Shown: one piece after another, positions 40,408-49,948 of the stretch
Layout of the letters: each line of letters begins with the position of its first letter
Numbering within the stretch: the stretch's first letter is position 1
NCBI GenBank assembly: GCA_903917565.1
Contig: CAIXBB010000005.1
Location: forward strand, 62,001-126,000
Direction of reading: 5' to 3'
Length of the DNA stretch: 64,000 nucleotides
Origin: an uncultured cyanobacterium
Lineage (GTDB): Bacteria > Cyanobacteriota > Cyanobacteriia > PCC-6307 > Cyanobiaceae
Made by a program: the position numbers and the translations under genes
The notes under the pieces: model-generated
What the model saw: only the letters and a program-made list of their open reading frames with translations
What the model was told of the DNA's origin: nothing
The model's database searches: none

Positions 40408-40445
40408 CCCCTAGGTTGCCTCCACCCACTGGGCCCCGGAGGGCG

Positions 40446-41480
40446 ATGCAGTCGAGCCTGGTCCTACAGAACCTGCTCTCCGCGCCGGTGCTGTTCTTCT
40501 TCCTGGGCATCCTCGGCGTGCTGGTGGGCTCCGACCTGGAGATCCCCTCCCCGCTGCCCAAACTGTTCTCCCTCTACCTGCTGCTGGCCATCGGCTTCAA
40601 GGGCGGCATGGAGCTGGCCCACAGCGGCCTCGGCCCCCAGGTGCTGCTGACGATCGGGGCGGCGGTGACGATGTCACTGCTGGTGCCGCTGACCAGCTTC
40701 CTGCTGTTGCGTCTGCGCCTGGATGGCTACAACGCCGCCGCCATCGCGGCCTCCTACGGCTCCATCAGTGCTGTCACCTTCATCACCGCCGAGAGCTTCC
40801 TCAATGTCCTCGAGGTGAACTTCGACGGCTTCATGGTGGCGGCCCTGGCTCTGATGGAATCGCCGGCGATCGTGGTGGGGGTGATCCTGGCCAAACTCTC
40901 GGCCCCTGCAGACGATGTGGAGACCCCAGGGGATCAGGAGAATGGAGGGGATCAGGAGAATGGAGGCACCAGTCTGCGCTGGCGGGAGGTGCTCCAGGAG
41001 GCCTTTCTCAACGGCTCCGTCTATCTGCTGATCGGCAGCCTGGTGATCGGTTACGTGGTGGCCGCCTTCAGCCCGGCGGGGCTGGAGAAGATGGATCCTT
41101 TCACCGAAAAACTGTTCTACGGAGCCCTCTGTTTCTTCCTGCTCGACATGGGCATCGTGGCGGCGCAGCGGCTGCGGGACCTGCGGCAGACGGGGGCCTT
41201 CCTGATCGGCTTCTCCCTGCTGGCCCCCCCTGTGCACGCCCTGGTGGGGCTGCTGGTGAGCGCCATGCTGGGCCTGGGTCAGGGAAACACCCTGCTGTTC
41301 ATGGTGCTCTGTGCCAGCGCCTCCTACATCGCCGTGCCGGCGGCCATGCGCATGACCGTCCCCCAGGCCAACCCCAGCCTGTACATCTCCACGGCCCTGG
41401 GTCTCACCTTCCCCTTCAATGTGGTGATCGGAATTCCTCTCTACATGGCGCTGACCCGACACTTCATCCCCGTCGGCTGA
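40446..41480 (+). CDS. sbtA: Sodium-dependent bicarbonate transporter
   Basis: SbtA imports bicarbonate with Na+, using the membrane gradient, and builds the cytosolic HCO3- pool for carboxysomes. About 344 aa from MQSSLVLQNLLSAPVL; ten to eleven membrane helices in two inverted halves. Characteristic parts are FFFLGILGVLVGSDLEIP, YLLLAIGFKGGMELAHSG, ASYGSISAVTFITAESFL and LTFPFNVVIGIPLYM. The central cytosolic loop (about residues 150-185) is short and contains two identical copies of GDQENG. sbtB follows by 47 bases, forming a two-gene unit. Confidence 0.96.
   Translation: MQSSLVLQNLLSAPVLFFFLGILGVLVGSDLEIPSPLPKLFSLYLLLAIGFKGGMELAHSGLGPQVLLTIGAAVTMSLLVPLTSFLLLRLRLDGYNAAAIAASYGSISAVTFITAESFLNVLEVNFDGFMVAALALMESPAIVVGVILAKLSAPADDVETPGDQENGGDQENGGTSLRWREVLQEAFLNGSVYLLIGSLVIGYVVAAFSPAGLEKMDPFTEKLFYGALCFFLLDMGIVAAQRLRDLRQTGAFLIGFSLLAPPVHALVGLLVSAMLGLGQGNTLLFMVLCASASYIAVPAAMRMTVPQANPSLYISTALGLTFPFNVVIGIPLYMALTRHFIPVG
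40929..40966 (+). repeat. 18-bp perfect tandem repeat inside sbtA
   Basis: Two exact copies of an 18-base unit (GGGGATCAGGAGAATGGA) at 40929-40946 and 40947-40964 plus two bases of a third. It adds six residues (GDQENG) in frame to the cytosolic loop of SbtA, giving residues 162-173. A slippage-prone site, likely variable between strains. Confidence 0.92.
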
Positions 41481-41527
41481 GCCCGGGCCCACGCCATCCC
41501 TCGCCAACCCTCTTCTGCCCCGACACC

Positions 41528-41809
41528 ATGAAACGAATCGATCTGTTTCTCAGCGAACGGGAGTTGAACCGGGTCTGCAAGGCCATCACCGCGGCCGGGG
41601 CCAAGGGCTATTCGGTGATGCGGCACGTCACGGGCATGGGGCCGTCCGGGGAGATCTCCGAAGGGATGGACTTCAGCGGGCTGGGGGCCAATGCGCACGT
41701 GGTCGTGTTCGTGGAGGACGCCCTGCTGGCGGCCGTGGGCAAGGCCCTGAGGCCCCTGCTGAAGCGCTACGGCGGGGTGGGCTTCGTCTCGAGCGCCGAG
41801 CCCCTGTGA
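41528..41809 (+). CDS. sbtB: PII-like regulator of SbtA
   Basis: SbtB is a PII-like trimer that binds adenine nucleotides, including cAMP, and gates SbtA. This 93-aa version starts MKRIDLFLSERELNRVCKAI and has the PII core with GAKGYSVMRHVTGMG (T-loop region) and AHVVVFVEDALLAAV. It ends FVSSAEPL, without the C-terminal Cys-containing R-loop found in Synechocystis SbtB, as in the SbtB of Cyanobium. It follows sbtA and a terminator-like hairpin follows it. Confidence 0.92.
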   Translation: MKRIDLFLSERELNRVCKAITAAGAKGYSVMRHVTGMGPSGEISEGMDFSGLGANAHVVVFVEDALLAAVGKALRPLLKRYGGVGFVSSAEPL

Positions 41810-41987: not shown

Positions 41988-42299
41988 ATGGCAAACGAAA
42001 CCATGGGCATCGCCCTCGGCATGATCGAGACACGCGGTCTGGTCCCCGCCATCGAAGCGGCAGACGCCATGACCAAAGCCGCCGAAGTGCGCCTCATCGG
42101 TCGCGAATTCGTCGGTGGCGGCTACGTGACCGTCCTGGTGCGGGGTGAAACCGGTGCCGTGAACGCTGCCGTCCGCGCCGGCGCCGATGCCTGCGAGCGC
42201 GTGGGTGACGGCCTGGTGGCCGCCCACATCATCGCCCGTCCCCACCGTGAAGTGGAGCCGGCGCTGAACAGCAGCTTCGGCCTGGGATCGAAGGACTGA
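41988..42299 (+). CDS. csoS1: Major carboxysome shell hexamer CsoS1
   Basis: A 103-aa single-domain BMC protein: MANETMGIALGMIETRGLVPAI, KAAEVRLIGREFVGGGYVTV, GETGAVNAAVRAGADACERV and the end HIIARPHREVEPALNSSFGLGSKD. It forms hexamers that tile the facets of the alpha-carboxysome shell; the pore loop includes FVGGGY. First gene of the csoS1-cbbL-cbbS-csoS2 operon and, from its position, likely made in large amounts. A second gene, csoS1E at 48828, carries almost the same domain. Confidence 0.97.
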   Translation: MANETMGIALGMIETRGLVPAIEAADAMTKAAEVRLIGREFVGGGYVTVLVRGETGAVNAAVRAGADACERVGDGLVAAHIIARPHREVEPALNSSFGLGSKD

Positions 42300-48193: not shown

Positions 48194-48496
48194 ATGTTGA
48201 TCTGCCAAGTGGTCAAACCCCTCGTCTCGACCAATCGCATCCCCGATTTCGAGCACAAGCATCTCCAGGTGGTTCAGGACGGCAGCACCCAGAAGGTGGC
48301 CGTCGACGCGGTGGGCTGCATCCCGGGCGACTGGGTGATCTGCGTGGGCAGCTCGGCGGCCCGGGAAGCGGCAGGAAGCAAGTCCTATCCGAGCGATCTC
48401 ACGATCGTAGGGATCATCGACCACTGGGATCCCGACGCCGGCAAGGCCAGCCCGCCTCCGAGCAACACGCCCTCCACCCAGGGAGGTGCCGCCTGA
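48194..48496 (+). CDS. csoS4A: Carboxysome vertex pentamer CsoS4A
   Basis: A 100-aa BMV (pentameric) shell vertex protein: MLICQVVKPLVSTNRIPDFEH, QVVQDGSTQKVAVDAVGCIPGDWVICVGSS-like core and DLTIVGIIDHWD. It caps the twelve vertices of the shell. Its TGATGG end overlaps the csoS4B start (48496), so the paralogous pair is coupled. The last 15 residues are a proline/serine-rich tail. Confidence 0.95.
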   Translation: MLICQVVKPLVSTNRIPDFEHKHLQVVQDGSTQKVAVDAVGCIPGDWVICVGSSAAREAAGSKSYPSDLTIVGIIDHWDPDAGKASPPPSNTPSTQGGAA

Positions 48497-48747
48497 TGGA
48501 GATCATGCAGGTCACCGGTTCCCTGGTCTGCTCCCAGCGGGTCCCCGGCCTGGAGCACTGGAACCTGCGGGTGCTGCGCAGCACCAAGGGCAAGCTCAGC
48601 GTTGCGGTGGATCCCGTTGGCGCCTCACCCGGCAACTGGGTGTTCACCGCCAGCGGTTCGGCCGCCCGCTTCGCCAGCGGCAACCCGGAGACGCACACCG
48701 ATCTCACGATCGGCGGCATCATCGATTTCTGGGAGCCAGACGGGTAA
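48496..48747 (+). CDS. csoS4B: Carboxysome vertex pentamer CsoS4B
   Basis: An 83-aa paralogue of CsoS4A with the same fold: MEIMQVTGSLVCSQRVPGLE, AVDPVGASPGNWVFTASGSAAR and DLTIGGIIDFWEPDG. Closes shell vertices. It starts at the final base of csoS4A (ATGA-like overlap). The ADVAL-like lysines of CsoS4A are replaced by other residues, as usual for the pair. Confidence 0.95.
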   Translation: MEIMQVTGSLVCSQRVPGLEHWNLRVLRSTKGKLSVAVDPVGASPGNWVFTASGSAARFASGNPETHTDLTIGGIIDFWEPDG

Positions 48748-48827
48748 GCGCCGGGGGGTACCGCCTCCGGGCGGCCTGCCTCCTTTCGATCGCCTCCATT
48801 CCAGTTCCTCCTCCCCGCGCCCGTCCC

Positions 48828-49475
48828 ATGGCCAGCCGCACCCCCCGCACCGGTCCTGACGCCACTCCCATCCCGGCCACTCCCACGCAGCCGGCGGCCG
48901 TTCCACCGGCCGTGGCCCCTCCCACCGGGGGGCCAGCCGGCGGCGGCAGCCCACCGGCCCTGCCACCGGCGGGAGAGGCCAAATCGGTGGCCAACAAACC
49001 GGCGGCCGCCACCAGGGCCCCACGGGCGGCCCGCTCCACCGCGCCGGCCCGCCAGCCGCGCCGGACCCCCGCCACCACCGCCCGCTCCAGCGCCTCCAGC
49101 CCCAGCCGCCGCGGCAGCGGTGGCGCCGGCACCCCACCCACGACCCCCACTCCCCGTACCCCCCCCATGGCCCCCACCATCCACGGCATCGCCCTCGGTC
49201 TGATCGAAACCCGTGGCCTGGTGCCGGCGATCGAGGCGGCGGACGCCATGACCAAAGCAGCGGAAGTCACCCTGATCGCCCGTGAGTTCGTCGGCGGCGG
49301 CTACGTCACCGTCATGGTGCGCGGGGAAACCGGTGCCGTGAACGCGGCCGTGAGGGCCGGCGCCGATGCCTGCGAGCGGGTGGGCGACGGTCTGGTGGCC
49401 GCCCACATCATCGCCCGTCCCCACAGCGAGTTGGAGCCGGCCCTGGCGGCCTCCGGCGTCGGCCGCAGGGGCTGA
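48828..49475 (+). CDS. csoS1E: BMC shell protein with long N-terminal extension, CsoS1E
   Basis: About 215 aa. Residues 1-119 are a Pro/Ala/Thr/Arg-rich, presumably disordered extension with several RR pairs (ARQPRRTPATT, SPSRRGSGG). Residues 120-206 are a BMC domain that differs from CsoS1 at only about six of 87 positions. The ATG at 48828 is the first in-frame start after csoS4B that fits; longer reading into csoS4B is rejected. CsoS1E genes are known from some alpha-cyanobacteria. The basic, disordered arm could contact RuBisCO or nucleic acid; that is inference. It is followed after 5 bases by the ferritin-like gene. Confidence 0.88.
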   Translation: MASRTPRTGPDATPIPATPTQPAAVPPAVAPPTGGPAGGGSPPALPPAGEAKSVANKPAAATRAPRAARSTAPARQPRRTPATTARSSASSPSRRGSGGAGTPPTTPTPRTPPMAPTIHGIALGLIETRGLVPAIEAADAMTKAAEVTLIAREFVGGGYVTVMVRGETGAVNAAVRAGADACERVGDGLVAAHIIARPHSELEPALAASGVGRRG

Positions 49476-49480
49476 GCTCC

Positions 49481-49948
49481 ATGGACGCCGCCCATCCGCG
49501 CGTCCTCGGCTACCTGGGCCGCGCGTTGAGTCTCGAGCTGTCCGCCGTGCAGCAGTACATGACCCAGGCCTCCCTCGTGGAGCTCTGGGGCGAGGCCGAC
49601 GCCGCCGAACATTTCCGCCAGGAGACGGTCGAGGAGATGCGCCACGCCGAACGGCTGGTGCAGCGCATGCTCCAGCTCGGGGTGGCACCTGCCGCTTCCC
49701 AGCTGCGGCCGGTGAGCCACGCCGCCGATCTGGAAGGTCTGCTGCGCCTCGATACGGTCCTGGAGCAGGATCTGATCCAGCTCTACGCCGAAGCGATGCG
49801 CTTCTGCCTGCTGATCGGCGATGGCAACAATGAAGCCTTCTTCCGCGCGCTGCGGGACGAAGAACAGGACCATGGGGAAGCGCTCGCGGCTTGGCTTGAC
49901 CGCCTGGGCACCGCCCAGTCCAGGTCCCTGCAAAGGGCCACCTTCTGA
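49481..49948 (+). CDS. Ferritin-like protein in carboxysome operon
   Basis: A 155-aa bacterioferritin-type four-helix protein: MDAAHPRVLGYLGRALSLELSAVQQY, TVEEMRHAERLVQRML, DLIQLYAEAMRFCLL, and DEEQDHGEALAAWLDRLG. Metal-binding Glu and His positions (E of LELSAVQQY, E and H of EEMRHAE, E and H of DEEQDHGE) look intact, so a diiron centre is likely. A bacterioferritin-like gene is a regular member of alpha-carboxysome loci; its role there is unsettled (iron or redox control). It follows csoS1E by 5 bases and precedes ndhF4. Confidence 0.88.
   Translation: MDAAHPRVLGYLGRALSLELSAVQQYMTQASLVELWGEADAAEHFRQETVEEMRHAERLVQRMLQLGVAPAASQLRPVSHAADLEGLLRLDTVLEQDLIQLYAEAMRFCLLIGDGNNEAFFRALRDEEQDHGEALAAWLDRLGTAQSRSLQRATF

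Follow-up and report, generated by a model that had tools for sequence, protein, structure and literature searches.

The stretch analysed here, referred to as the window, comprises 64,000 nucleotides from an uncultured cyanobacterium of the Cyanobiaceae (GenBank assembly GCA_903917565.1, contig CAIXBB010000005.1, positions 62,001 to 126,000), whose nearest named relatives include Synechococcus and Cyanobium strains. On its forward strand it carries a cso operon that starts with csoS1 (41988..42299), the gene of the major shell hexamer, which was assigned by open reading frame, PF00936 and alignment and serves as our comparison gene, followed by cbbL (42351). Further downstream lie two pentamer genes recognized by PF03319, csoS4A (48194..48496) and csoS4B (48496..48747), named A and B from gene order, and the second of these is immediately 5' of csoS1E (48828..49475), a complete coding sequence whose open reading frame translates into 215 amino acids plus a stop codon. 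The locus is an ordinary CsoS1E ortholog, a protein already described in print.

The product contains a single PF00936 stretch (residues 122-198, E 1.5e-25), and its best solved match by both sequence and fold is 4ox8, the CsoS1 of MIT 9313. The NCBIfam CsoS1 model NF053791 scores it at 175.9 bits, above its cut-off of 166, and would, taken alone, call the domain CsoS1, so that the naming was decided by the N-terminal arm and the context. In alpha-cyanobacteria, CsoS1 starts at the domain and ends in Lys-Asp, a form from which the window protein departs by an arm of 119 residues and an RRG tail, while CsoS1D, a BMC-T protein, is distinguished by a tandem pair of BMC domains where CsoS1E of the window has one only. 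The CsoS1E proteins of Cyanobium sp. PCC 7001 and of other alpha-cyanobacteria likewise combine one PF00936 domain with an unstructured extension in a cso operon. The available passages of the two papers that treat them call this N-terminal extension unstructured or leave its function undefined, and they give its length as about 80 and 80-100 residues, against 119 here (PMC10689251, PMC4499774).

The arm (48828..49184, residues 1-119) has a net charge of +12 and is made up mainly of Pro (28), Ala (25), Thr (17), Arg (12) and Gly (11), with Ser (10), Lys (2), Asp (1) and Glu (1) as minor residues. It holds RR pairs at 78 and 94 and an Ala-Leu-Pro, an instance of the [AV]LP motif counted among relatives below, at residues 44-46 (48957..48965, counted by hand). 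An in-frame ATG at residue 114 (49167..49169) aligns with the start codon of CsoS1, 6 residues ahead of the core of the BMC domain (49185..49445), which by alignment shares 81 of its 87 residues with CsoS1, and the protein closes with the C-terminal tail AASGVGRRG (49446..49472), which tail comparison assigns to an Arg-Arg-x end type. AlphaFold2, run on a 39-row alignment, assigns the arm no secondary structure, helix included, at block-mean pLDDT values of 48-59, and predicts the BMC fold with pLDDT of 85-90 over residues 121-180, followed by 78 and 69. A preliminary description of the locus, which had seen a near-identical CsoS1 domain behind a 119-residue disordered basic arm rich in Pro, Thr and RR pairs, was correct in these respects.

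Over the core, CsoS1E and CsoS1 of the window agree at 81 of 87 residues and 85.4% of nucleotides, with the same codon at 53 of the 81 common residues. Such identity is not special to the window genome: in relatives, 87 of 88 rows span all 87 positions with 75 to 85 matches, the remaining row (L075) being a fragment that covers 48 positions only. Across 79 genomes, represented by 79 distinct sequence pairs that also underlie the codon comparisons between genomes given below, the core varies at 4 of 87 positions in CsoS1 and at 22 of 87 in CsoS1E. At core position 29, every one of the 79 CsoS1 has Arg and no CsoS1E does; core position 81 of CsoS1 is Arg in 78 genomes and Lys in one and never equals the residue of the same-genome CsoS1E, and the two paralogs have the same residue at 29 and 81 in 0/79 genomes. 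Thr at core 29 and Ser at core 81 replace the arginines of CsoS1 in the window, and positions 32 and 44 also mostly differ between the paralogs. Core residues 29-35 would be close to the pore, on the concave side of the hexamer, when the part of PMC10902431 at hand is combined with CcmK2 numbering, a placement that we kept out of the evidence.

The residues reported for CsoS1A at the hexamer edge or in contact with CsoS2 are K29, A30, R83 and H79 (PMC10484944, in the sections available), which correspond to core 24, 25, 78 and 74 when numbered from the alignment. At these sites CsoS1E is conserved, with core 24, 74 and 78 invariant in the 79 genomes and core 25 mostly Ala (76 genomes), with Ser in the other 3. 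The earlier suggestion that a CsoS1-type domain would be able to co-assemble with CsoS1 is supported by this retention of edge and CsoS2-contact residues.

It had also been proposed that recent duplication or ongoing gene conversion made the two domains so alike. At the multi-codon residues shared by the window pair, the same codon is used in 52 of 80 cases, where codon usage alone would give 45.5 (z 1.55), and z exceeds 3 in 6 of the 87 rows of the codon-usage table (the codon-identity table has 88 rows, and some strains stand twice, under two locus ids). In the window clade, with 11 distinct genomes, codon sharing amounts to 0.647 in own pairs and 0.647 in mixed pairs (permutation p 0.45), compared with 0.881 for CsoS1 against CsoS1 and 0.802 for CsoS1E against CsoS1E. 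Taken over all 79 genomes, own pairs do share more codons than unmatched mixed pairs (0.543 versus 0.451, p 0.0002) and slightly so in a genus set of 21 genomes (0.614 versus 0.600, p 0.019), which would favor conversion. When mixed partners were limited to those within 0.03 in third-position GC, for which 71 genomes had enough partners, own pairs reached 0.555 and mixed pairs 0.548, the own value being the higher one in 33 of these 71. Because the excess nearly vanishes with this matching, base composition explains nearly all of it. A Sawyer-type runs test of silent sites detected no conversion tract in the window clade (global p 0.72) or in the other four sets (global p 0.20, 0.40, 0.34 and 0.43), and a pairwise p of 0.009 for L031 in the genus set is uncorrected for the number of genomes. 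The comparison of csoS1 and csoS1E DNA across related strains, which the preliminary description had put forward as a check, thus gives conversion no support in the window clade.

Trees and AU tests were based on 36 of the 79 genomes, hand-chosen for spread, plus 10 proteobacterial rows. CsoS1E of the window falls inside starred sets made of CsoS1E only, and a topology with CsoS1 and CsoS1E of the window as sisters is rejected (p 4e-9), which, with silent sites near the codon-usage expectation, leaves a recent duplication unsupported. The test does not reject a grouping of both proteins of six genomes from the window clade (p 0.09); in the free tree CsoS1E does not form one clade (3 changes), and a single-clade constraint is not rejected either (p 0.10). 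The likeness of CsoS1E to CsoS1 is most readily explained by an old paralog held under purifying selection, in view of the silent-site divergence, the residues at core 29 and 81 and the distinct C-terminal ends. It is not that of a fresh copy, which removes the duplication story, while an old, rare exchange between csoS1 and csoS1E is possible given the rows with z above 3, the own-pair excess and the p values of 0.09 and 0.10.

Among relatives, 140 rows labelled S1E yielded 98 distinct arms once identical arms had been merged and contig-end fragments omitted, the start of each arm being set at the first Met before A, T, S, P or V downstream of csoS4B. The proteobacterial rows L066, L086, L090, L097, L103 and L104 were excluded from the arm counts by hand, and proteobacteria as a further source of CsoS1E-like arms were rejected, the matches there being plain CsoS1 with its own start codon just ahead of the domain. 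Arm length ranges from 56 to 204 amino acids (median 116.5), and the net charge is positive in 98/98 arms, from +1 to +18 (median +11), with neither Trp nor Cys in any of them. RR is present in 73 of the 98 arms (shuffled mean 40), RS[ST] in 73 (shuffled 35), [AV]LP in 50 (shuffled mean about 6) and a VDV-like motif in 33 (shuffled 2), the rows here, as in the other counts, being related, so that they are not independent events. The arm types are mutually exclusive: 58 arms have Met six residues ahead of the core and no VDV, 33 have VDV and lack that Met, and 7 have neither. As the arm is poorly conserved in sequence, bulk charge may be the only property under selection, or may be a by-product of composition. 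The contig ends within the csoS1E arm in four genomes of the same genus (L011, L013, L014 and L025, from G226, G187, G090 and G268), and the region may therefore be difficult to assemble.

The C-terminal ends separate the paralogs as well. An Arg-Arg-x end is found in 96 of the 98 distinct CsoS1E and Arg-Gly-Gly in the other two, the last residue over all 98 tails being L, S, G, A, Y, K or M, whereas CsoS1 ends in Lys-Asp in 93/93 rows, a count that includes duplicates and omits one of 94 rows, cut by a contig end. CsoS1 (CsoS1A) accordingly shares 81 of 87 core residues with CsoS1E of the window and differs from it by having no arm, Arg at core 29 and 81 and the Lys-Asp end. The Arg-Arg-x end, the Lys-Asp end of CsoS1 and the constant basic charge of the arm are details new here, and what remains of value lies in these paralog-specific ends and in the hypothesis of an outward arm developed below; within the passages of the CsoS1E literature covered, which subscription papers mostly lie outside, there is no mention of the Arg-Arg-x end or of the arm motifs.

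CsoS1E is widespread in small carbon-fixing cyanobacteria, and its function is not known in print. We give an even chance to the reading that it is an old, minor CsoS1 paralog whose domain is kept for tiling and whose arm and Arg-Arg-x tail form a basic patch on the outer, extralumenal side of the shell. As a hexamer-forming minor shell protein in the carboxysomes of alpha-cyanobacteria, long separated from its paralog CsoS1, it would have kept a near-identical domain because it tiles with, and perhaps mixes into, CsoS1 hexamers, as the conserved edge residues suggest. The N- and C-termini of CsoS1A are described on the concave side, toward the cytoplasm (PMC10938918), and shells as concave-out (PMC10484944), each in the portion of the paper available; with the same topology, the arm and the Arg-Arg-x tail of CsoS1E would exit on the concave, cytosol-facing side. 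Arm and tail could then give the outer surface a patch that is flexible and strongly basic and that might dock or space something outside the shell rather than cargo of the lumen. Because the CsoS1A termini face the cytosol, the arm is more likely to act outside the shell than on cargo, and it probably points outward; against this, the CsoS1E hexamer could be inverted, or the arm could reach inside. PMC10902431, in part, mentions the speculation that outward-facing ends lacking order adjust shell-cargo as well as shell-shell contacts. In purified carboxysomes of Cyanobium PCC 7001, all nine building proteins were detected by mass spectrometry, according to the accessible text of PMC10689251, which speaks, from another strain, against an absence of CsoS1E from purified carboxysomes.

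A different emphasis, which we consider doubtful though worth weighing, would make CsoS1E a specialist of the border between hexamers and pentamers, with the changes in the domain being what matters and the arm secondary. CsoS1E has been found to co-evolve with CsoS4A/B and argued on that ground to sit beside pentamers (excerpts of PMC10689251), and such adjacency, with csoS1E placed immediately 3' of csoS4B in the window, would explain why CsoS1E is retained without assigning a role to the arm. Co-evolution is, however, hard to assign between near-identical paralogs, and the changes at core 29, 81, 32 and 44 differ from the edge residues K29, A30 and R83 given in the part of PMC10484944 at hand.

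An arm directed into the lumen and binding cargo there, be it Rubisco, CsoS2 or carbonic anhydrase, seems unlikely to us. The preliminary description had suggested that the arm could hold cargo, a role that the cytosolic termini of CsoS1A, the concave-out shells and the arm sequences themselves make less likely. CsoS2 likewise has a long basic disordered segment, and mixing CsoS2 with CsoS1 produces turbidity ascribed to its basic N-region (PMC4499774, where covered), but CsoS2-N-like patterns (RR-x-AL, RR..GK) occur in 0/98 CsoS1E arms, a weak observation that amounts to a lack of enrichment, since shuffled arms give just about 0.6 in 98. Two of the 98 arms contain the shell-binding motif [IV][TS]G, fewer than the roughly 12 in shuffled arms, and no helix is predicted. 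As a positive control, RR..AL, RR..GK and [IV][TS]G, patterns that we simplified ourselves, match 3, 3 and 23 times in CsoS2 of the window. A precedent for an inward arm is the N-terminal domain of PduB, reported as interior-oriented and involved in shell-cargo contact (PMC10902431, in the passages available).

A more specific version of the outward arm, which we regard as a long shot, would turn CsoS1E into a built-in device for positioning carboxysomes or keeping them from clumping, an outward brush that holds them to the nucleoid or another surface, with the VDV and ALP motifs for docking. A hexamer made entirely of CsoS1E would present six arms and six Arg-Arg-x tails. The ground for this reading is the absence of McdAB from alpha-cyanobacteria stated in the available parts of PMC8262871 and PMC12918739, and how carboxysomes are spaced without McdAB is a question on which the arm and tail may bear. 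McdB, by the available account in PMC12918739, is disordered like the arm and would share with it a location outside the shell if the topology proposed above holds; the CsoS1E arm differs in being fused to the shell, and the conserved C-terminal Trp reported for McdB has no counterpart in the 98 arms, which lack Trp, or at the 98 tail ends.

It is likewise improbable that csoS1E is translated into both a long form with the arm and a short one without it, the latter started from the ATG at residue 114. Of the 98 arms, 58 have a Met precisely where CsoS1 starts, whereas Met makes up 0.14% of residues elsewhere within arms, and the median rank of the pyrimidine fraction before the internal ATG, taken within each of these 58 arms, is the 95th percentile. 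The Met is nevertheless missing in 40 of 98 arms, including all 33 of the VDV type, and it may be a relic of an ancestral start or a structural residue as well as a second start. A Shine-Dalgarno-like motif precedes 0/58 internal ATGs, as it does 0/98 main starts of csoS1E, with 6/98 at a control place in the arm, so that the motif does not discriminate between the two starts. The csoS1E leader, at 48798-48827 in the window, is without such a motif at 98/98 loci, and 34 of 61 distinct csoS1 leaders have one.

Least credible of all, and very improbable, is an account in which csoS1 and csoS1E owe their likeness to a recent duplication or to gene conversion that is still going on. It has the high protein identity, the unmatched own-pair excess, the six rows with z above 3 and the uncorrected L031 value on its side. 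For the window genome it is largely refuted: silent sites agree about as often as codon usage predicts, own and mixed pairs do not differ in the clade and hardly differ over the 71 GC-matched genomes, five of five global runs tests have p above 0.19, core residues 29 and 81 are never common to both paralogs, and the window pair is rejected as sisters.

In the family, 283 of 300 searched genomes match the query, CsoS1 being included in this count, and a genus group designated g17 (1.6-1.7 Mb) has csoS1 only in 23/23 searched genomes. The available text of PMC4499774 reports that csoS1E was not found in high-light strains, and we infer that g17 is this published high-light group. The Arg-Arg-x tail was also considered as a required partner of the Lys-Asp tail of CsoS1, a pairing rejected because the 23 g17 genomes without csoS1E all retain the Lys-Asp end. 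Their CsoS1 tail (L159 and L161-L182) reads GNG(E/D)FLGQKD, with one added acid relative to GNGNFLGQKD, which among related forms is the most frequent in the remaining rows.

A search of the window genome with PF13614 returned six matches, among which we take MinD, Mrp and ChlL to be present. L154 and L156 of this genome are MinD/ParA-like ATPases with the P-loop RGGTGKSN and lie on contigs other than that of the cso operon. Next to csoS1E, 5 bases after its stop, a ferritin-like gene (PF00210) occupies 49481-49948; its bacterioferritin model match is below the cut-off and its EncB match is weak and likewise sub-cut-off. At the other end of the operon, 5' of csoS1, 40416-41809 encodes a membrane protein and a small PII-like protein, which we take to resemble SbtA and SbtB.
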